Shown: piece after piece, positions 4,209-17,383 of the stretch
Position numbering within the stretch: the stretch's first letter is position 1
Layout: each line of letters opens with the position of its first letter
Virus record (IMG/VR): IMGVR_UViG_3300031784_000188
Span: 1 to 25,222 of that record
Strand: one strand, 5' to 3'
Length of the DNA stretch: 25,222 nucleotides
DNA from: a virus
Notes under the pieces: generated by a model
Databases searched by the model: none
What the model saw: only the letters and a program-made list of their open reading frames with translations
What the model was told of the DNA's origin: nothing
Position numbers and translations under genes: made by a program

Positions 4209-4553
4209 ATGAGACCTATATGTAAGCAATGCAATAAGAACTTTTGCGCTATTAATTACAAACGTAATGACATAATACACTATCGGTCTAAATGTGATGA
4301 GTGTGGTCGTAAGAATAATAAGAAAAAAGCTAGAGTACCCAGCTGGCAAAAAGCAGGATACAAGAAAAAAGCCGCATGTGATTTATGCGGCTTTAAGGGA
4401 TTGTTTACTAGTCAGCTTACCGTCTTCTACATTGACGGTAACTTAGATAATAACGAACTAATAAACTTACGTAGTATCTGTCTTAACTGTGTAGAAGTTG
4501 TCAAACGTAAAGAAGTTACTTGGCGTAGGGGTGACTTAGAAGTTGACTACTGA
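4209..4553 (+). CDS. Small protein with two zinc-ribbon CxxC pairs, degenerate HNH-like
   Basis: A 114-residue basic protein of a type common in aquatic T4-like phages; its function is unknown. Four CxxC pairs are visible: C5/C8 with C29/C32, and C57/C60 with C91/C94, so two zinc-binding knuckles are likely. The second half has an HNH-like layout (YIDGNLDNNELINLRSICLNC) but lacks the first His expected before the DGN motif, so nuclease activity is doubtful. The protein ends in WRRGDLEVDY. An in-frame ATG exists at 4173, but 4209 is preferred because the conserved part begins at MRPICKQC. It lies alone on the plus strand between two minus-strand genes, and its last 18 bases overlap the 3' end of the kinase gene. 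A possible promoter is TTGAGG (4114-4119) with TAATAT (4138-4143), which is weak. Confidence 0.75.
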   Translation: MRPICKQCNKNFCAINYKRNDIIHYRSKCDECGRKNNKKKARVPSWQKAGYKKKAACDLCGFKGLFTSQLTVFYIDGNLDNNELINLRSICLNCVEVVKRKEVTWRRGDLEVDY

Positions 4554-5168
4554 GTTTACTTGCCCGTGTAATGAATCAATACTTCCGTTGTTGTCAATAT
4601 AGTAGTCGTACAACAATCCTACACTACTGTACTCACTTGCATGAACATTGTGCCCTTCTAGTATTAACTTGGCTTTTTGATATTGTTCGCTACTTTCAGA
4701 TTCATTGTTGTAATCAACTGCGGCACTATACCATACTGGACGTGACCCACGATTAACTCTCATAGTCACACCACCTACACTTTTAATTGAATTAACTTCA
4801 TTTGCAAATCTGCAATCAGTAATAACAATATTTTCGTCTGTCTGACGTAGTTTGTTCTCTACACTAGCAACCCAGATATCTTTATGAAATCCATTACGAC
4901 AAACTTCTGTTCCCCAATATTGTAGTACCCATCTAGGTGTAATTTCCATACCTAATCGGTCACTCCACCAGTCATCACGTTTTTCACGCCATTCTCTACT
5001 AGACTTAGTTGAACCCTCTAGTAAATCTCTATTCCAACCAAATACTGCGGCTACTGCGTCTTTCAATGAGGCCGCAAAACTAACACGTTTGAATCCGTGA
5101 AATGTGCAAAGATAGTCAGCAATTGTATCTTTACCTGACCCAATCAATCCTGTAACTCCAATAATCAT
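4536..5168 (-). CDS. gp1: Deoxynucleoside monophosphate kinase, gp1-like
   Basis: The protein is predicted to phosphorylate dNMPs to dNDPs to feed phage DNA synthesis in the cytoplasm. From the chosen ATG it has 210 residues. It begins MIIGVTGLIGSGKDTIADYL, a P-loop (G7-L-I-G-S-G-K13-D) with the Asp after the Lys typical of dNMP kinases. A segment with WREKRDDWWSDRLGMEITPRW and the following LQYWGTEVCR matches the gp1 family, and DCRFANEVNSI fits its later part. T4 gp1 is slightly longer (241). ATG 5168 was chosen because AGGAG sits 7 bases upstream. The in-frame ATG at 5189 directly follows the -10 box and would lie upstream of the transcription start. The gene has its own sigma70-like promoter, so early expression is inferred. 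Confidence 0.85.
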   Translation of the reverse strand: MIIGVTGLIGSGKDTIADYLCTFHGFKRVSFAASLKDAVAAVFGWNRDLLEGSTKSSREWREKRDDWWSDRLGMEITPRWVLQYWGTEVCRNGFHKDIWVASVENKLRQTDENIVITDCRFANEVNSIKSVGGVTMRVNRGSRPVWYSAAVDYNNESESSEQYQKAKLILEGHNVHASEYSSVGLLYDYYIDNNGSIDSLHGQVNSVVNF

Positions 5169-5189
5169 ATGGTAACTCCTGTAATACAT

Positions 5190-5218
5190 ATTGTACTACA
5201 GGAGAGCGGTAAAGTAAA
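5190..5218 (-). promoter_or_regulatory. Sigma70-like early promoter for dNMP kinase
   Basis: On the minus strand TTTACT (5213-5218), a 17-base spacer ending in GTAG, then TACAAT (5190-5195). Spacing and -10 box are the same as in the promoters at 9388-9416 and 18087-18115. The predicted start, near 5183, leaves a leader of about 15 bases with AGGAG. Confidence 0.7.
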
Positions 5219-5860: not shown

Positions 5861-6622
5861 TTAGCCTTGTACCCAAGTCAATGGTTGACTATAATCTACA
5901 TAACGCTTTAAGTCTTCTAGTAACTGTGCTTGCATCTCTTTGGATTCTGCTTTCATGGCTGCACCGTTCAAACTTGTACCGCCACCTGGTCCTGCAATGC
6001 TAGCAAACTTCTCACGTGCTTCACCGATGATGCCCTTAAGGATAGCTAAGATCCAGTCGCTAATCCAAACACCTGCACCCGGATCCTGTAGCAATACTGC
6101 TTCAGGCTTCTGAATGTCTGCCCAAATCAATACATGCTCTCCGCTACCTTTTACATCACGTACAATACGTAATTCTTTAGTTACTGGATTAAATGTGAAT
6201 ATTACATATCCACCGAACATACGTGCGGCTAGTTCAACATATCCTGCATACATGTCATATGTAGCTAGACCACCTGCATAATTATAGTTAAGCAAGTATG
6301 TGTTCAAAATAGCACTTGAGAATGGATCAAATGCTGATGCACCAGGACCAGTCTCCATCCCGATACTTCTACGAAATAACTGTCTTACGTTAATGAATTC
6401 GCTAGGCAAAGTGTAAACATCTACATTCTTTTCTAACGTCAATAATGTATAAGATTCTTCAGTAGAATTCTGTGCCCTTTGACGATAGATACTAATAGCA
6501 TATCTATATGCTGATTCAAAGTGTTCGGGTCCAATCTCAAGGTCAACTATTCCGTCACCTAAACGTAGTCGTAAATTTCTAAATAAGTCTTCTTTTAATT
6601 GGTCTAATGTAGCACCTGCCAT
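5861..6622 (-). CDS. gp13: Neck (head-completion) protein, gp13-like
   Basis: A 253-residue protein resembling the gp13-type neck proteins of T4-like aquatic phages. These complete the filled head and form the site for tail attachment. The N-terminal half is helical (YRYAISIYRQRAQNSTEESY), followed by a conserved YTLPSEFINVRQLFRR segment, a GGLATYDMYAGYVELAARMF segment, FNPVTKELRIVRDV, then a late helix GEAREKFASIAGPGGG and the end SQPLTWVQG. The ATG is preceded by GGAG at 7 bases. That ribosome site lies inside the 3' arm of a perfect 15-bp hairpin overlapping a late promoter, so late-only translation is inferred. The ART-like gene follows without a gap. The gp13 assignment is from remembered family wording and could be another connector protein. 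Confidence 0.65.
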   Translation of the reverse strand: MAGATLDQLKEDLFRNLRLRLGDGIVDLEIGPEHFESAYRYAISIYRQRAQNSTEESYTLLTLEKNVDVYTLPSEFINVRQLFRRSIGMETGPGASAFDPFSSAILNTYLLNYNYAGGLATYDMYAGYVELAARMFGGYVIFTFNPVTKELRIVRDVKGSGEHVLIWADIQKPEAVLLQDPGAGVWISDWILAILKGIIGEAREKFASIAGPGGGTSLNGAAMKAESKEMQAQLLEDLKRYVDYSQPLTWVQG

Positions 6623-6623
6623 A

Positions 6624-6658
6624 ATAATCTCCAGATAATGTATTTATCTGGAGATTAT
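6624..6658 (-). promoter_or_regulatory. Hairpin hiding the gp13-like ribosome site in read-through RNA
   Basis: A perfect inverted repeat with 15-bp arms (6624-6638 and 6644-6658) and a 5-base loop. On the minus strand the 3' arm contains the GGAG ribosome site (6629-6632) of the gene starting at 6622. The 5' arm starts 3 bases past the upstream early gene's stop. The late promoter at 6641-6648 spans the 5' arm and loop, so RNA begun there lacks the 5' arm. This matches the known design of T4 e, soc and 49. Confidence 0.8.
6641..6648 (-). promoter_or_regulatory. T4-type late promoter (GATAAATA) for gp13-like gene
   Basis: GATAAATA on the minus strand, 18 bases before the ATG and embedded in the inverted repeat. 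Transcripts would begin around 6635, leaving a short open leader with CTGGAG. Confidence 0.75.
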
Positions 6659-6661
6659 CAA

Positions 6662-7381
6662 TCAAAGAAATGTAAAGTTACTAGAAAATGCGTCTGCTGA
6701 TTTTGCCCTAGTAGCAAGGTGTTTCATGTTCTTATGTGAGATTCTAAAGTTAACTCCTGAATCACGCACATCTAACAAGAACAATGATTCAGGTCCTGCA
6801 CTAATAGTAAAATCAGCTTTATAGATTTCATCATAATCCAACAGTTCACCCTTAAACAATGCCATCATACCTCGTTCTGAAACGATTGATTGCAGTTCAT
6901 CGTAAGACTTTTCTAAATCTTCCTGAATGTGGTCATAGTCAAAATAGTAGACATTTACATCAGTAATAGCACACAAATTATTGTCATACCATACATCAAT
7001 ATGACCTTGCATTTTTTTATAAACATCTGACTGTCTATAAGATTTATTTACTAAATCATACCATTTAGAATGCCCAATTGTAGTCGCATTATCTGCAATA
7101 GATGTAGCGTTATGGGACTTGATATCTAGCCCATATTCTAATACATCAGGACCCTTTTTAGTTTCACCATTACGGCAAACTGGATCAAAAAATTCAAGAA
7201 CCATTCGTTCAATTTCTCTACCAGTACTGCCATGTGGGTTTGCAATACCCACATGTTGTTTAGGAACTGATTTTCCAATCAATTGATCTCTCAAAAACTC
7301 AATACCCTCTTGTGTAATCCTACGTGTAATTTTAGGATACTTACTAGGGCCATGTACTACGTCTTCATATAATGCTGTCAT
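6662..7381 (-). CDS. Putative PD-(D/E)XK endonuclease, early operon
   Basis: A 239-residue protein with a restriction-endonuclease-like motif: E57 in GREIERMVLEFF, then GPDVLEYGLDIKSHN giving P78-D79 and D86-I87-K88, as in PD-(D/E)XK enzymes of the MutH/type II kind. The rest (SKWYDLVNKSYRQSDVYKKM, VNVYYFDYDH, a C-terminal FRISHKNMKHLATRAKS) fits a mixed α/β fold. A role in cutting host or unmodified DNA is possible but is inference; no specificity can be read. It is the last gene of the five-gene operon from the promoter at 9388. Its ATG overlaps the MazG-like stop (ATGA). No terminator follows, so RNA should run on into the hairpin before the gp13-like gene. Confidence 0.6.
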   Translation of the reverse strand: MTALYEDVVHGPSKYPKITRRITQEGIEFLRDQLIGKSVPKQHVGIANPHGSTGREIERMVLEFFDPVCRNGETKKGPDVLEYGLDIKSHNATSIADNATTIGHSKWYDLVNKSYRQSDVYKKMQGHIDVWYDNNLCAITDVNVYYFDYDHIQEDLEKSYDELQSIVSERGMMALFKGELLDYDEIYKADFTISAGPESLFLLDVRDSGVNFRISHKNMKHLATRAKSADAFSSNFTFL

Positions 7382-7791
7382 AAATCACCTTCTTTTCTGT
7401 TTTCACTATAAAATGCATCAAAGTGTCCTCCTGGATATCGGGATTCTAACTTTGATACGTTCTCTGCAATGATATCATTGGGATCATAGTTCAATGCTCG
7501 GCAAGCATTAGTCCAATACCAAATGATATCTCCCAACTCACGCTTCATGTGAAAACGATTTTCTTCAGTAAAAGGTTTACCCTGGAACATCATCTTCTTA
7601 ACAATCTCGCTAAACTCTCCACCTTCACTGGCTAACCCTGTGCTTGCTGTCATAAGCAATGCAGGATTAATGTTAGAGTGTTGCTTCAACTCTCTTAGTC
7701 TGGCTATAAGTGTCTCTGTATCATTACTAGCATCACTAGTAACAGCTTGTACAAAATCTTTGTATTTGTTTAAATCAATGTTTTGTGACAT
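7378..7791 (-). CDS. mazG: MazG-like nucleotide pyrophosphohydrolase
   Basis: A 137-residue protein of the all-helical MazG/dUTPase-like superfamily, which hydrolyses nucleoside triphosphates to monophosphates and pyrophosphate. The metal-binding signature is clear: E56-G-G-E59 in GLASEGGEFSEIVKK, then E85-L-G-D88 in KRELGDIIWYW. Length fits single-domain phage MazG proteins. Phage MazG has been linked in other systems to dNTP pool cleaning or to ppGpp metabolism; which applies here cannot be told. The gene overlaps its upstream neighbour by TAATG and its downstream neighbour by ATGA, so translation is probably coupled within the early operon. Confidence 0.85.
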   Translation of the reverse strand: MSQNIDLNKYKDFVQAVTSDASNDTETLIARLRELKQHSNINPALLMTASTGLASEGGEFSEIVKKMMFQGKPFTEENRFHMKRELGDIIWYWTNACRALNYDPNDIIAENVSKLESRYPGGHFDAFYSENRKEGDL

Positions 7792-8012
7792 TACTTTCCA
7801 ATCAATCCGTACAAACCCTTAGCAAGTGATTCTAACTCACTCTCACTCATATAAAAACTGTAAGTTGAACTCATGTCAACATCACCTTTTTTATCTTTTG
7901 TTTCCTGAATAAACTCAACTGCATAGAGATCATTAGGATTAATAGCTCTCCATTGCTTCACACGCAATCTAAAAGCTTCGTTATCTTTAACTGTAAATTC
8001 TTTCACTTCCAT
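7791..8012 (-). CDS. Small conserved protein of unknown function, early operon
   Basis: A 73-residue protein without a recognised catalytic motif. The middle reads NPNDLYAVEFIQETKDKKGD, followed by STYSFYMSESELESLAKGLY, which suggests two or three β-strands and a C-terminal helix. Similar short proteins are familiar in aquatic T4-like phages, but no function is known to me. It is joined to both neighbours by one-base TAATG overlaps, which supports it as a real, co-translated gene. Not a membrane protein by eye. Confidence 0.7.
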   Translation of the reverse strand: MEVKEFTVKDNEAFRLRVKQWRAINPNDLYAVEFIQETKDKKGDVDMSSTYSFYMSESELESLAKGLYGLIGK

Positions 8013-8194
8013 TATACTAGGTCCTTAAACATGTTTTTTCTACCTTCTTCCCCTACAAGCATGTCAAATACTTCTTTGACACGCTGTAACATAGCGCAAT
8101 TAAGCATAAGCAAGTCACGCCTATCATCGCACATCATAATTTGCTGGTCAATCGGCTTGACTAACTCAGTCATACGTTCTTGAATATCATTCAT
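8012..8194 (-). CDS. Small helical protein of unknown function, early operon
   Basis: A protein of about 60 residues, MNDIQERMTELVKPIDQQIM followed by a helical stretch CDDRRDLLMLNCAMLQRVKE and FDMLVGEEGRKNMF. It is predicted to be almost wholly α-helical with an acidic-basic pattern typical of small phage regulators or partner proteins. ATG 8194 was chosen over the TTG at 8197 because the ATG shares its A with the upstream TGA stop (TGATG), a common coupling arrangement. Its own stop overlaps the next ATG (TAATG). Function unknown. Confidence 0.7.
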   Translation of the reverse strand: MNDIQERMTELVKPIDQQIMMCDDRRDLLMLNCAMLQRVKEVFDMLVGEEGRKNMFKDLV

Positions 8195-9360
8195 CAAAAT
8201 GCTTTCAAAATAATCATACCTTCATTAAAGCGGCCATTAGGTGTAGTACTGACTGCTTTAATATCTTTAAAGTACTTACGAGCGGCTGGCTTGCTACCCA
8301 TAATTTCTTTAATCTGCTCTGTTGGTTTACGTAATGTTTTTATTTCACTTTGTGCAGTATCAAATCCTAACAACGTATTACCTTTGACAGTAAATGTTTT
8401 GCTGTAATCATCTGCAACATAATGATGTAACTTGCGTTTTGCTGTATCATATACCCAAGCTTCACTTGCACCATGAAGTTTTGTGGGATGTACGCTTGCC
8501 AAATCTAACTTACTTGCTGTATCTTTAAATACTTTCAAGTACTTCAATTTTGCTACCTGTTTCTCTACAGGAACAGCTTTTCGGGCACGTGGGGCTTTTG
8601 CCGCTTTCTTAACACTAACGTAACTGTTCAGGTCTCCCAGAACTTGTTCGATAAACTTAAGTATATTCTTAATTTGAGTTTTTGTCAAATGCTGGTAACC
8701 CTGAACAAGTTGTGCATCCTTGCCCTTTGCAACCTCATCAAACTCGTTTTGTTTCTTTTTCCATACATCAGCTAACAAACTGATATGTTGTGGCATTACG
8801 TTCTTTTTTGCTACTTCATCCATAGGCTTAAATGAATGTTTTGTGGGTGCGCCTGCTGTAATAAAATCATCAAACATACCTTCAAGTTCGCCTGCCGCAT
8901 CACGTGCTTTATCTTTCAGAATGTCCTGAATATTCGGACGTGTAGCTGATTCTTCTTTTTCTTTAGGTATTTCGGGTTTAACTAAACACTTTAATACTCG
9001 GGAAATCTCGTTCTGTAATGTAGCTTCCTCATGTTCTGACAGTTCTAACCCTCTAAGATTCATACGTGCCAACCAGCAGAATGTCATTAGGAATTCACTT
9101 TCATGAACCTTACGCATCTTTTTAGCATCTTCTGTGCGGTTGTTATAATCTAAGTATTGACTTAGTAGTTCCTTAGCATCTTTTTTAGTATAGAAACGGT
9201 TATACCAATTGAAGCTTCGGGCTAGTGTAACATTTCGTTTATCCTCATCGGGTTGCAATGGGAAGAAGGGTTCGTCACCTAAATATTTTGTATCTGCATC
9301 TCTTGGGTTCAATGCCTTGACAAAGTGGTCTTCTGTATGTTTGCCTTTACGTGTAGCCAT
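8194..9360 (-). CDS. Conserved lysine-rich protein of unknown function, first gene of early operon
   Basis: A 388-residue soluble protein that I do not recognise by function. The N-terminal half is helical and charged, with SFNWYNRFYTKKDAKELLSQ and LMTFCWLARMNLRGLELSEH. A basic linker (KKAAKAPRARKAVPVEKQ) separates it from a C-terminal region with β-strand character (EAWVYDTAKRKLHHYVAD, FTVKGNTLLGFD) ending in NGRFNEGMIILKAF. Proteins with this C-terminal style occur in other aquatic T4-like phages. ATG 9360 was chosen because AGGAGA lies just upstream and the predicted transcript starts near 9381, which excludes the in-frame GTG at 9396. It heads a five-gene overlapping operon expected to be early. 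The basic linker could bind nucleic acid; that is speculation. Confidence 0.75.
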   Translation of the reverse strand: MATRKGKHTEDHFVKALNPRDADTKYLGDEPFFPLQPDEDKRNVTLARSFNWYNRFYTKKDAKELLSQYLDYNNRTEDAKKMRKVHESEFLMTFCWLARMNLRGLELSEHEEATLQNEISRVLKCLVKPEIPKEKEESATRPNIQDILKDKARDAAGELEGMFDDFITAGAPTKHSFKPMDEVAKKNVMPQHISLLADVWKKKQNEFDEVAKGKDAQLVQGYQHLTKTQIKNILKFIEQVLGDLNSYVSVKKAAKAPRARKAVPVEKQVAKLKYLKVFKDTASKLDLASVHPTKLHGASEAWVYDTAKRKLHHYVADDYSKTFTVKGNTLLGFDTAQSEIKTLRKPTEQIKEIMGSKPAARKYFKDIKAVSTTPNGRFNEGMIILKAF

Positions 9361-9387: not shown

Positions 9388-9416
9388 ATTGTACACTAGA
9401 TTCCAATTAAATGCAA
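9388..9416 (-). promoter_or_regulatory. Sigma70-like early promoter for five-gene operon
   Basis: On the minus strand TTGCAT (9411-9416), a 17-base spacer, then TACAAT (9388-9393). The predicted start near 9381 leaves a 21-base leader with AGGAGA. It is the best match to the bacterial consensus in the window and lies back to back with the rightward late promoter at 9439. Confidence 0.75.
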
Positions 9417-13219: not shown

Positions 13220-13639
13220 ATGCACAAAAATATTTCAGCGGGCGTATTCTTCTATTGTTCCCAAACTAAACGATTGCTATTCTTATTAAGAAGCGATGAA
13301 AAGAACATTGGTAATTGGGGACTGCCCGGTGGAAAGCTTGAAGAAGGTGAAACACTAATAGAAGGTGTTGAACGTGAGTGCAGTGAAGAAATTAACTTCT
13401 TTCCAGAACATGCAAAACTAATACCTATACAGAAATTTGTGAATAACACATTCACTTATCATACATTCTTTTGTATCATTGAGAATGAATTCATTCCTAT
13501 ATTAAATGAAGAACATGTAGGTTATGCTTGGGTAGATTATAGAAGATATCCTAAACCACTACATCCTGGTTTATTCAACACAGTAAACTTTGAAGTGGTT
13601 CAAGAAAAGATACAGAAGATAATAAAAAAAGCGACCTAA
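13220..13639 (+). CDS. Nudix hydrolase
   Basis: A 139-residue enzyme predicted to hydrolyse a nucleoside diphosphate linked to another group. The Nudix box is clear: GLPGG leads into G-K-L-E-E-G-E (first Gly and Glu of GX5E), then seven residues and R-E-C-S-E-E-I-N, with the usual final Gly replaced by Asn. The N-terminus (MHKNISAGVFFYCSQTKRLL) and the later part (TYHTFFCIIENEFIPILNEE, WVDYRRYPKPLHPG) fit small phage Nudix proteins. The substrate cannot be read; candidates are oxidised or dinucleoside nucleotides, ADP-ribose or NADH. It follows gp15 by 16 bases without a strong ribosome site. Its stop lies inside the loop of the following terminator. Co-transcription with late tail genes is likely. 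Confidence 0.85.
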   Translation: MHKNISAGVFFYCSQTKRLLFLLRSDEKNIGNWGLPGGKLEEGETLIEGVERECSEEINFFPEHAKLIPIQKFVNNTFTYHTFFCIIENEFIPILNEEHVGYAWVDYRRYPKPLHPGLFNTVNFEVVQEKIQKIIKKAT

Positions 13640-14215: not shown

Positions 14216-17200
14216 TTACCTAGCAATTGGTACCGGAACGCCTACATTACCGGCTACATCAACTCCAACTGTTATTTTATAGACACCGAAGCCATCTGTA
14301 ATATACAATCCATCTGCCCCACCTAATAGTTGCCAGTTAGGTGCTGTTGGCCAGTTAGAAGTATTTGCATCAGATGTATCTTTAATCACAACACTAGCTA
14401 AGTATGCATTTCTAAAGAATGAACTACCTAATGCTTCATCCTCACTATCACCCAAGTTAGTAGTAAAGTCGCTTACTGGAATAAACGAATGTGAGTTAGG
14501 TGCTGTTGAATCATTCTTTGCTAATACTATTGCATCCGTGTTAGCAGTATTTGCTAACTGGGGAGCTCCAAAGCCTGCAGCTTGTAATGGTACTATCCCT
14601 ACTAATGCATCAAATACTAATATACCTGAACCTGAATGTGCAGGCTTATCAAGTATACTGAATCCAGTAGGATCAGTCGATATATACATATTGGTCACTG
14701 AACCATCTAATATCAAAGCATCAGTTGAATTTATACTATTTGTGCCTGATATACGTAATGAAGTTAAGTTACCTACACTAGTAATATTACTTTGTTGTGC
14801 TCCTGTAACATATCCAGCATACGCAGAATAGTTTGCGTTTGCTACGTCACCGCTAATAGCATTTCCATCAATACCGGTTATGTTGCTACCATCACCATAC
14901 AAGTAATTTGCAGTTACAATATTAACTGTTTCGATGTTACCGATATTAGCATTACCGGTTACTTCTAACACTGTTAGATTACCAAGACTAGTAATGTTAG
15001 GCTGTGCATTTACTGAAACAGTATTTGCAATATCAGCGTTAGATACTGCACCTAATATGTTACCTGCAGGCAAGTTTATTAAATTAGCACCGCTACCGAT
15101 AAAGAAGTTAGCAATAACTGCATTACCTAAGTTAGCATTACCACCAGTAATATTACCAGTTACTGTCAAGTTTGTTAAGTTACCTACACTAGTGATATTA
15201 GGTTGTGCATTAGTTGTTAGCGTACCAGTCATTAAGGTTACTGCTAATGTGTTTGTAGAATTGTTAAATGTAAAGTCTGCACTACCAGTAAATGCACCAC
15301 TTACATTAAACTGTACAGAATTTGCGTTAGAGTCAGGAGATTGAGCCGATACCCAAGTTAAATTGCCGGTTCCATCTGTTCTTAAGAATTGACCATTTGC
15401 TCCACCCGTAATATTAACATTACCTACATTACCCAGTGTGGTAATACCTGATACAGTTAAGTTAGATAATGTACCTAAACTAGTTATATTAGGTTGAGCA
15501 TTATCATTAACTGTATTTGCAACTAATGCAGAATTAGCAGAGCCTGCATATGACGCAAAGTTTGCATTTGCAACTTGTCCTACATTAGCGCCATTGATAT
15601 TAGTTAGATTAGCACCACTACCAACAAAGAAGTTAGCAACAACTGCATTTGCACCACTTAAATTACCTGCAGTGATATTACCAGTGACAATTAAACTTGT
15701 TAAGTTACCCACACTAGTAATATTAGGCTGTGCGGCTGTTGTAATAGTACCTGCTATGTTAGCTACTGTTAATGTATTTGAACCACTATTGAAAGTGAAG
15801 GCTGAACTTGCACCAAATGCACCAGCATCATTAAATTGAATTTCGCTATTAGCACCGCCGGGTGTGCCACCACCACCACCAGGTGTAGCCCATGTTAAAG
15901 TACCTGCACCATTTGTTCTTAAGAATTGACCACTAGTACCGCCGGGTATCTTAACGTTAGAAACGCTAGCTGTCTGTAGTATACCATTAACAGTTATATT
16001 TGGTACGGTTGCTAAGAAATTTATAGGATCATATGTTAATGCGGCGTCGCCACCGAATGACCCATTATTGTTGAATTGAATGAATGTGTTTGAACCGCCC
16101 GGTGGTGTAGAAGTAGCTAATGCCGGCTCCCATGATAGTCCACCTAATCCATTAGTAGTTAACACATAACCATTAACACCACCTGAAATTCTAACATTGG
16201 CTGCATTACCTAAATAACTAATACCATCTACAGCTAATGTGCTTAGATTACCAATACTAGTAATGTTAGGCTGTGCGGCTGTAGTTAATGTACCGCTTAC
16301 TGTATTTGCAGTTACTGATGCAACATTGATAGTGTTGGTTGAAAGATACAAGTTACCTGTTATACTAACACCATTAGTGTTAGATGAAATATTTTGTGTT
16401 CCTAAGTTGATTGTAGTTCCACTTAGATACAAATCTCTCCACTTAAGTGAACTAGAACCCAAGTCAAAAGTTTCATCAGATGAAGGGACTAGGTTAGATT
16501 GTACACGACTTGTAACTCTAAGATTACCTACGTTTGCTAAACCAGTACTGAATAAATTACCGACGTTAGCATTACCTGTTACTGCTATTCTACCTGAAAT
16601 ATTAGCGTTGCCACCAGTAATGTTTCCTGTAATAGTTGCATTATTAGCTACAATAATACTAGTGAATGCACCTGTGTTAGGTGTACCTGCACCCACTGTA
16701 CCGTTATGTGGACCTATCAAATTACCGTATATATTACCTGATGTAACATTAATATTACCGGCGTTAGTAAGTTCGCCGGTAACTTCATTGTATACAAAGC
16801 CGGAACTACCACCAAAGGTAGTACCACCTTGATTGTATTGAATTTGACTGTTAGCACCACCTGGTGTTCCAGAAACAACGTTGCCAGTTAAGAATGCTGC
16901 CCAAGTTAAGTTACCTGTACCGTCTGTTTGTAATATATAACCGTTAGTACCGCCGCCTAACTTAACGTAGTCAGCATGACCTAAGTGAACATTGACATTA
17001 TTATATTGACTAGTATTACCAGGCTGTTTAGCGTTTCCACCTGCATTAACCCACTCTAAGTTAGTAGAGTTTGCGATGTTTTTAGCAACAACTAACTGCC
17101 CGGGAACAACGTTTGATAAATTAATATTGCCGTTACCAGTACCTGTAATTTTTCCGAAACTTAAATTACTAACCTCAGTGAGAATTTCTGTTTGTGTAGT

Positions 17201-17356
17201 AGTACTTGAATTAGCGGCAGGATGTATTACAGGATCGTTACCTATATATATACGCCTGTCATCAGTTGCAAAACCGATCTCCCCGATATCTAATTGGGGT
17301 AAGTCAACGTTTGCACCTGTACGGTGTTGAATTTTGGAGATTTGTACGATAGCCAT
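14216..17356 (-). CDS. Repetitive tail-fibre-like structural protein
   Basis: A 1046-residue, Asn/Gly/Thr-rich protein. Residues 1-45 (MAIVQISKIQHRTGANVDLP, then LDIGEIGFATDDRRIYIGND) resemble the N-terminal domain found in phage fibres and tropism-determinant proteins ('IQ.R.G', 'GE.G...D...yiG'). The body is made of interleaved repeats. At least six copies have the form QPNITSxGNLTxLxVTGN, four the form NGQFLRTDGTGNLTW, and four the form GGANSxIQFNxxGxFGG. These suggest a long β-structured shaft. The C-terminus (WQLLGGADGLYITDGFG and on) has no repeats and may be the tip. It probably forms host-recognition or whisker-like fibres, but its place in the virion is not shown by the sequence. The start codon lies in a hairpin overlapping a late promoter. 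No good ribosome site is visible (only AAAGA about 10 bases upstream). Confidence 0.75.
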   Translation of the reverse strand: MAIVQISKIQHRTGANVDLPQLDIGEIGFATDDRRIYIGNDPVIHPAANSSTTTQTEILTEVSNLSFGKITGTGNGNINLSNVVPGQLVVAKNIANSTNLEWVNAGGNAKQPGNTSQYNNVNVHLGHADYVKLGGGTNGYILQTDGTGNLTWAAFLTGNVVSGTPGGANSQIQYNQGGTTFGGSSGFVYNEVTGELTNAGNINVTSGNIYGNLIGPHNGTVGAGTPNTGAFTSIIVANNATITGNITGGNANISGRIAVTGNANVGNLFSTGLANVGNLRVTSRVQSNLVPSSDETFDLGSSSLKWRDLYLSGTTINLGTQNISSNTNGVSITGNLYLSTNTINVASVTANTVSGTLTTAAQPNITSIGNLSTLAVDGISYLGNAANVRISGGVNGYVLTTNGLGGLSWEPALATSTPPGGSNTFIQFNNNGSFGGDAALTYDPINFLATVPNITVNGILQTASVSNVKIPGGTSGQFLRTNGAGTLTWATPGGGGGTPGGANSEIQFNDAGAFGASSAFTFNSGSNTLTVANIAGTITTAAQPNITSVGNLTSLIVTGNITAGNLSGANAVVANFFVGSGANLTNINGANVGQVANANFASYAGSANSALVANTVNDNAQPNITSLGTLSNLTVSGITTLGNVGNVNITGGANGQFLRTDGTGNLTWVSAQSPDSNANSVQFNVSGAFTGSADFTFNNSTNTLAVTLMTGTLTTNAQPNITSVGNLTNLTVTGNITGGNANLGNAVIANFFIGSGANLINLPAGNILGAVSNADIANTVSVNAQPNITSLGNLTVLEVTGNANIGNIETVNIVTANYLYGDGSNITGIDGNAISGDVANANYSAYAGYVTGAQQSNITSVGNLTSLRISGTNSINSTDALILDGSVTNMYISTDPTGFSILDKPAHSGSGILVFDALVGIVPLQAAGFGAPQLANTANTDAIVLAKNDSTAPNSHSFIPVSDFTTNLGDSEDEALGSSFFRNAYLASVVIKDTSDANTSNWPTAPNWQLLGGADGLYITDGFGVYKITVGVDVAGNVGVPVPIAR

Positions 17357-17383
17357 AGTATAATCTTTATATGATTATACTAT
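17355..17383 (-). promoter_or_regulatory. Hairpin over the fibre gene start in read-through RNA
   Basis: A perfect inverted repeat with 11-bp arms (17355-17365 and 17373-17383) and a 7-base loop. The 3' arm on the minus strand includes the AT of the fibre ATG. The 5' arm overlaps the last three bases of the late promoter at 17381-17388, so RNA begun there would lose most of that arm. The upstream gene is an early exonuclease. Confidence 0.7.

Follow-up and report, generated by a model that had tools for sequence, protein, structure and literature searches.

A promoter-embedded hairpin as a probable translational gate at a viral neck gene, with a mirror-image arrangement at the adjacent dNMP kinase gene

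The leader of the neck gene in a 25,222-nucleotide stretch of viral DNA (IMG/VR record IMGVR_UViG_3300031784_000188, positions 1 to 25,222; hereafter the window) contains a perfect inverted repeat that overlaps both a late-type promoter motif and the ribosome site of the gene. Judged from the sequences of the window and its relatives, we consider it very likely that this repeat is a translational gate with a promoter embedded in it, and that a mirror-image gate operates at the next gene, which encodes a deoxynucleoside monophosphate (dNMP) kinase. Early run-on RNA from the operon upstream of the neck gene would carry both arms of the repeat and fold into a stem of 15 to 17 bp, hiding the GGAG ribosome site so that neck protein would not be made from early read-through RNA. 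A gp55-like sigma factor would then activate the promoter GATAAATA, and late RNA would begin inside the 3' arm; lacking the 5' arm, it would have an open ribosome site and be translated. At the kinase gene, a sigma70-like promoter would lie within a stem that can form in late read-through RNA alone, and since run-on late RNA would form this stem, the kinase ribosome site should be hidden in it. With such reciprocal gates, neighbouring early and late genes on the same strand would each be translated only from the RNA of their own promoter.

The neck gene (5861..6622, minus strand) encodes a product that matches PHROG 211, head-tail adaptor Ad2 (E 1.5e-22), and its relatives are annotated as neck protein, gp13-like. 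Named relatives of the protein comprise 61 records, mostly from jumbo phages, with 24–46% identity in the 60 rows listed. The minus strand between the end of the upstream gene (6662) and the neck start (6622) reads GATAATCTCCAGATAAATACATTATCTGGAGATTATT-ATG. The 5' arm of the repeat (6644..6658), which is expected solely in read-through RNA, and the 3' arm (6624..6638) are 15 nt each, 100% complementary and separated by a 5-nt loop, making this the longest perfect repeat of the 51 inverted repeats in the window with arms up to 40 nt apart (the 25 longest are listed). The 3' arm holds the GGAG ribosome site at 6632-6629, 6 nt before the ATG at 6622, and the motif GATAAATA at 6648-6641 comprises the final five 5'-arm bases and three loop bases. 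An earlier sequence-only reading had placed a 15-bp repeat between an operon and the neck gene, the ribosome site within its 3' arm, and the late promoter over 5' arm plus loop; all three were recovered here. Folding of 121 nt around the repeat gave −31.3 kcal/mol against −19.0 ± 3.1 for shuffled sequences (z −4.0; 1/200 shuffles as low). On a 180-kb contig with a near-identical locus, whose neck protein is 100% identical to that of the window, the neck hairpin scored 36.5, the highest of 160 gene leaders, where 0.2 scores of 30 or more were expected from shuffles. A blastn comparison of the leader region with named phages gave no match, and a scan of bacterial genomes for relatives found none.

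By analogy with T4, whose spacing we assume applies here, the late RNA would start near 6634, 6 nt past GATAAATA. The motif ATAAATA occurs 16 times in the window against 12.4 expected, a number reached by 21 of 100 shuffles and so not clearly above chance; across six relative contigs, GATAAATAC gave 64 matches and the reversed pattern 9. Three of the six contigs encode a homologue of a gp55-like late sigma factor, and the contig nearest to the window is one of them. The genes before the neck gene form a co-directional operon (6662..9360, minus strand) that encodes a protein of unknown function (6662-7381), a MazG-like pyrophosphatase (7378-7791), two small ORFs and a PHROG 11903 protein. It is preceded by a weak sigma70-like promoter, TTGCAT-17-TACAAT (9388..9416, minus strand), which was read by eye and, with 3/6 and 5/6 consensus matches, falls under the limit of our scan. 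Gene function and this promoter together suggest that the operon is early, and it is the presumed source of read-through RNA. Consistent with the sequence-only reading, according to which the operon has no terminator, a simple scan lists no terminator-like site on the minus strand between these co-directional genes and the neck gene. The promoter and terminator scans gave counts within about 2 standard deviations of shuffles and served only for checking named sites. In one relative, the gene upstream of the neck gene (L022:3758-3946) matches the histone H1-like protein Hc1 (Pfam PF07432).

A scan of viral contigs yielded 116 relatives of the locus, of which the best 80 were kept. Two of these (L063, L068) had no usable neck start, leaving 78 scorable leaders; for L018, L032 and L067 the neck start was reassigned manually. 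Every one of the 78 carries TAAATA within 45 nt upstream of the start. Pairing of the arms was then assessed by a swap test, from which L001 and L020 were left out because their upstream sequence is too short. Leaders were cut at the predicted RNA start, placed 6 nt past the motif for both promoter types, and each upstream segment was joined to each downstream one. For 52 distinct neck leaders, opening the ribosome site cost 14.2 kcal/mol with the leader's own upstream segment against 8.3 kcal/mol with a foreign one, and the mean cost in the predicted late RNA was 2.3 kcal/mol. The leader's own segment ranked in the top 10% of donors in 31/52 cases and in the top 25% in 40/52. When the set was reduced to 22 representatives of less than 80% identity, the values were 14.4 own against 7.7 foreign, a difference attained in none of 20000 permutations. 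The sequence-only reading had named relatives with arms not kept complementary as evidence that would count against it and had suggested folding both RNA forms; on each point the outcome of the swap test favours it.

Changes on both sides of the stem can be read directly in individual relatives, for example CTCCGTATAAATAC..TATACGGAG in L022, CTCCCGATA..TATCGGGAG in L036, GTACTCC..GGAGTAC in L015 and CCTGATA..TATCAGG in L034. An alignment of 28 neck leaders of the same geometry shows changes on both sides at 7 of 12 pairs (20 cells; 0/500 shuffles), bearing out the expectation of paired changes in the arms, and structures slid along the alignment pair 29–50% of cells against 89.6%. These 28 rows, which are the pairing class with L034 added and with L049, L050 and short rows removed, were largely selected because they pair, and the unselected swap test therefore carries more weight. 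At least 6 of the 18 bases of the initiation region are paired in 51/52 neck leaders, and in 46 of these 51 the ribosome site pairs with bases that precede the predicted RNA start. The stem covers the start codon in L044, L045 and L077. Sense and antisense neck hairpins do not differ in stability (sense lower in 28/52, p 0.52), so strand asymmetry offers no argument for RNA at this gene.

The gene that follows the neck gene has a hairpin of the reverse kind, a device that the sequence-only reading had overlooked. It encodes a dNMP kinase (4536..5168, minus strand; PHROG 139, Pfam DNMK; start chosen by relatives), an early-type gene by its presumed timing, and is preceded by the inverted repeat CTCCTGTAGTACAATATGTATTACAGGAG at 5176-5204 on the minus strand. 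The 5' arm (5192..5204) overlaps the −10 hexamer TACAAT (5195-5190) of a sigma70-like promoter, TTTACT-17-TACAAT (5190..5218, minus strand; 9/12 matches), which is thus built into the hairpin, and the 3' arm (5176..5188) holds the kinase AGGAG (5180-5176). Because the −10 lies inside the repeat and AGGAG in the 3' arm, RNA from the gene's own promoter would lack the 5' arm. Both arms are changed in relatives, to GCCCTTGTAATATAATAAGTATTACGAGGGC in L019, L040 and L068 and to GCTCTGTATAATACAACGATACGGAGC in L071, and further variants are GGTTGATGTATAGTATCAACC-ATG (L061) and ATCTCTTTGTTAT..ATAACAAGGAGAT (L038). Among 50 kinase leaders, 20 fit the sigma70 pattern with no more than two mismatches, against 0.9 expected. 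The swap test on these 50 leaders gave 10.0 kcal/mol for own and 6.4 for cross combinations, and 2.2 kcal/mol for the predicted early RNA; the own segment was in the top 10% in 24/50 and in the top 25% in 38/50, and for 21 representatives none of 20000 permutations did as well. A reciprocal gate calls for a covarying stem that contains a sigma70 promoter and whose 3' arm includes the ribosome site, and this is the arrangement seen here. Here the hairpin is more stable in sense than in antisense orientation (39/50, p 0.0002), and this strand asymmetry argues for action as RNA at the kinase. In most of these relatives the kinase gene therefore appears, from its leader sequence, to be closed in late run-on RNA.

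Kinase leaders without a good promoter tend to lack the stem (L034, L054, L056, L067, L078-L080), and most of them sit behind other inserted genes; L039 (a spurious start), L079 and L080, which had no promoter candidate, belong to the rows dropped or set by hand. Three leaders combine a promoter candidate with a weak stem (L015, 3.6; L021, 4.5; L069, 2.0 kcal/mol).

The tail-sheath gene served as a control. For 45 sheath leaders outside the L057-L067 group, the swap test gave 4.1 own against 3.7 cross, with the own segment in the top 10% in 5/45 and in the top 25% in 16/45. The near-flat outcome indicates that the swap test yields little signal by itself. Most of these leaders have a terminator-like hairpin upstream, as judged by eye. 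In the window, two terminator-like hairpins lie between the kinase and the sheath gene (4328..4394, minus strand), and termination, in place of a ribosome-site hairpin, seems to set this next late gene apart. A gated sheath gene was accordingly rejected for the window's own group, in which terminator-like sites are present and the stem is absent.

Not every neck leader has a strong stem, and most of the weak or decayed ones belong to nine distinct leaders in which a conserved non-coding element of about 390 nt (L021:908-1355, L040:3479-3924, L009:2233-2624 and relatives) separates the neck gene from the genes before it and lies no more than about 250 nt from the neck start. A stem of at least 9 kcal/mol is found in 2/9 leaders with the element directly upstream against 39/43 without it, the other 4/43 likewise having no strong stem. 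Sister rows that differ in element and stem are L023/L045, L054/L035 and L072/L075. After correction for the tree, five independent pairs remain, of which about 3.5 agree and none disagrees at 9 kcal/mol, which is not significant. A second set was drawn by element sequence, starting from a 19-base core that occurs in 65 viral contig stretches. Of these, 64 were read (the 65th, L054, is in the first set) and 63 matched the element; with 10 lacking a neck gene, two lacking a start and L186 set apart, 50 neck leaders remained. Nine of the 50 reach 9 kcal/mol, in agreement with the first set, among rows of which nine are first-set contigs, many are near-copies and some starts are uncertain and probably miscalled. 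In L186, where the element lies 368 nt from the neck gene, the stem costs 18.2 kcal/mol. The element is upstream of the neck gene in 51/51 stretches with a measurable distance, at 41–184 nt in 50 of them. Its consensus fold over 10 rows has 56 pairs, 30 of them with compensatory changes. Searching it against Rfam gave no match at gathering score (one chance match, E 0.53), neither a tRNA nor a tmRNA was found in it, and blastn against named phages gave no match. A known RNA was rejected on the Rfam, tRNA and tmRNA searches, and the element is probably an undescribed structured RNA.

We compared 18 named phage records, 12 of which keep the order neck, kinase, sheath. Strong neck stems with TAAATA inside are present in GAP32, CBB, XbC2, BF, pEa_SNUABM_19, XaC1, Muenster, Munch and fENko-Kae01, with opening costs of 17–24 kcal/mol and, in several, a T run before the ATG; comparison scores in XaC1, GAP32 and CBB were 27.5–29.5. 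Four distant phages (Atu_ph07, Vibrio phage 2.275.O, Phosso and SCTP-2) have their upstream gene on the opposite strand, and no high-scoring neck stem was found in any of them (scores 4–16), as the idea of a gate predicts. PA5oct has a co-directional upstream gene, yet its neck stem is weak (8.8 kcal/mol). Neck values of RaK2, 121Q, PBECO4 and Kaldavass were left out on account of unsuitable starts, the ones we set ourselves for RaK2 (1456) and 121Q (1532) being off by some bases. Relative to the ATG after the hairpin, the annotated neck start is downstream in PBECO4 (L157), and it falls inside the stem in RaK2 (L155), 121Q (L166) and Kaldavass (L170).

At the tail-sheath gene of the named phages, 11 of 12 leaders, a number that includes several identical pairs, carry AATCCTCCAA or a close variant just before AATAAATA. 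AATCCTCCAA is complementary to TTGGAGGATT at the sheath ribosome site, with some G-U pairs and with one mismatch in XbC2 and Kaldavass; the PA5oct sheath leader differs. By this complementarity, the named relatives show a putative use of the gate design at the tail-sheath gene too. No strong kinase gate was found in 12 named phages (1.3–8.3 kcal/mol), and in 9/12 a terminator-like hairpin precedes the kinase gene, as judged by eye; it is annotated in the Munch record. From these contrasts, it seems that some lineages place a hairpin at this boundary and others a terminator or the non-coding element. We lean slightly towards the broader view that these jumbo phages insulate early and late genes of the same strand by hairpins working in both directions, and elsewhere by terminators or the ~390-nt RNA.

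Several other functions were considered for the neck repeat. It might be an intrinsic terminator or attenuator that ends the upstream operon, its overlap with the late promoter being incidental, and in some relatives, where the stem ends in or precedes a T run, transcription termination is a possible alternative: at least five T come before the ATG in L049-L053, L056, L070 and L071, such a run is also found in GAP32, CBB, XaC1, XbC2, BF and pEa_SNUABM_19, and there is a T tail at the kinase in L019, L040 and L068. In the window, however, the stem is followed by TATG and a T run is absent at 6623-6616; the combination of G+C-rich stem and T run was not found at the neck stem, where the terminator scan lists nothing. 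Moreover, most relatives of the same geometry keep the ribosome site paired without such a tail, and three stems cover the ATG. We therefore regard termination as an unlikely function, although it is the least improbable of the alternatives. That the repeat is a DNA operator, at which a dimeric protein bound to the dyad controls the late promoter, is considerably less likely. The dyad has the promoter at its centre, many relatives share the core CCAGATA/TATCTGG and the neck hairpins have no sense-strand bias, all of which an operator would explain, but the arms vary while staying complementary, which a fixed operator does not allow. Stem length and register are also variable, the position of the stem follows the ribosome site or start codon, and the same arrangement occurs with a different type of promoter (sigma70) at the kinase.

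On general grounds, nucleases could plausibly target a long perfect stem at the edge of an operon, and the neck stem could thus be an element for RNA processing or stabilisation (an RNase III or RNase E site, or protection of a 5' end). Such an element needs neither a promoter inside the stem nor a ribosome site in one arm, and it gives no reason for a weak stem where the non-coding element intervenes; we rate this possibility marginally below the operator. Chance and composition, by which leaders that are AT-rich and share a fixed promoter and a fixed ribosome site would merely look complementary, can claim that four stem bases (GATA) are part of the promoter and that the genome-wide excess described below is modest. 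This account is contradicted by the swap test, the representatives of less than 80% identity and the sheath control, at the neck and kinase genes alike, and its probability is negligible. Translational gating is thus the reading we prefer for both hairpins.

In phage T4, soc encodes a capsid protein, and genes 25 and 26 are virion (baseplate) genes. The notion in the sequence-only reading that guarding a virion protein is new hence does not hold, genes 25 and 26 being listed among those with a sequestered ribosome site, together with 39, segB, mobE, I-TevII and I-TevIII, in the text available from PMC2988022. In T4 e, soc, 49 and I-TevI, hairpins silence the long early RNA and spare the short late RNA, and the e stem cuts synthesis about 100-fold (PMC3014915, in the portion available). 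That this logic is established for e, soc and 49, as the sequence-only reading had it, is thus borne out, and the neck hairpin is a new instance of it. As in these four T4 genes, a late promoter lies in the DNA of the stem's 5' strand, and the ribosome site and/or start codon lies in its 3' strand; unlike them, the present case concerns a neck or head-tail adaptor gene in relatives of RaK2-like jumbo phages. Comparable neck stems occur in named phages at about 40% neck-protein identity. A hairpin of this kind also precedes a gene of a relative (L126) for which PHROG gives a weak homing-endonuclease match, resembling the T4 homing endonucleases. What would be a handful of T4 examples may in this way become a design principle that can be traced over many phages by covariation.

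The kinase hairpin is a different matter. All T4 genes under such control are late genes according to the available part of the review PMC2988022, and the kinase hairpin, which would guard an early gene from late RNA, departs from that remark; a case of an early gene guarded against late read-through is missing from the same part of the review. For the ATAAATA-type late promoter and the gp55-like sigma factor, the closest parallel is CBB/GAP32: in CBB, 35 sites ahead of structural genes carry ATAAATA, and a gp55-like sigma factor is present (PMC5259590, available sections). Hairpins at the late promoters of CBB and GAP32 find no mention in those sections, and we describe them here for the neck gene. 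Among the matches listed in our literature search, in which subscription journals are mostly outside coverage, no title or abstract reports a gated early gene or jumbo-phage hairpins of this type. The nearest logic to the kinase case is fold-back inhibition in IS10/Tn10, where the promoter lies in an inverted repeat and read-through RNA from outside hides the ribosome site of the transposase. There, a mobile element is set against outside promoters, whereas here a phage would separate its own early and late genes. Gates of the two kinds would explain how early and late genes can be interleaved on one strand without terminators, and the late-gene gate is open to culture tests in the named relatives 121Q, PBECO4 and Munch.

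How widely the design is used was surveyed in six relative contigs, on promoter-bearing records with 40 shuffles each, a few genes entering twice because each promoter type makes its own record. Of the records whose upstream gene is co-directional, 22/246 surpass every one of their shuffles in hiding the ribosome site (6.0 expected), against 1/71 with a divergent upstream gene (1.7 expected). The 22 include four neck genes and one kinase gene; without those neck and kinase matches, 17/241 remain against 5.9 expected. Among co-directional late-promoter records, 9/98 beat all shuffles (2.4 expected), and 4/9 are neck genes. A gate at every late promoter was rejected on this count of 9/98 records; the design is confined to selected boundaries. 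Leaders whose value was reached by at most one of 40 shuffles include those of baseplate-wedge genes (two contigs), a head protease and a weak homing-endonuclease match.

Hairpins at other genes were also observed. On the minus strand of the window, an 11-bp perfect hairpin at 17355-17383 adjoins GATAAATA ahead of a gene for 1046 amino acids (14216-17356); this gene comes after the exonuclease gene and is a candidate for gating. The exonuclease leader itself (upstream of 18080, minus strand) has the stem TTGTATTAC/GTAGTACAA right before the start, together with TGTAGTACAAT, as at the kinase. On the plus strand, the hairpin ATAGTGATTTA/TAAATTACTAT lies directly 5' of a NUDIX gene at 13220, which follows a tail-sheath-stabiliser-type gene. 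In a relative (L113:3242-3592, minus strand), a hairpin overlaps a perfect TTGACA-17-TATAAT promoter: its 5' arm falls in the promoter spacer, most of the −10 is in the loop, and GGGAG is part of the 3' arm, ahead of a small protein that matches the SWIM domain.
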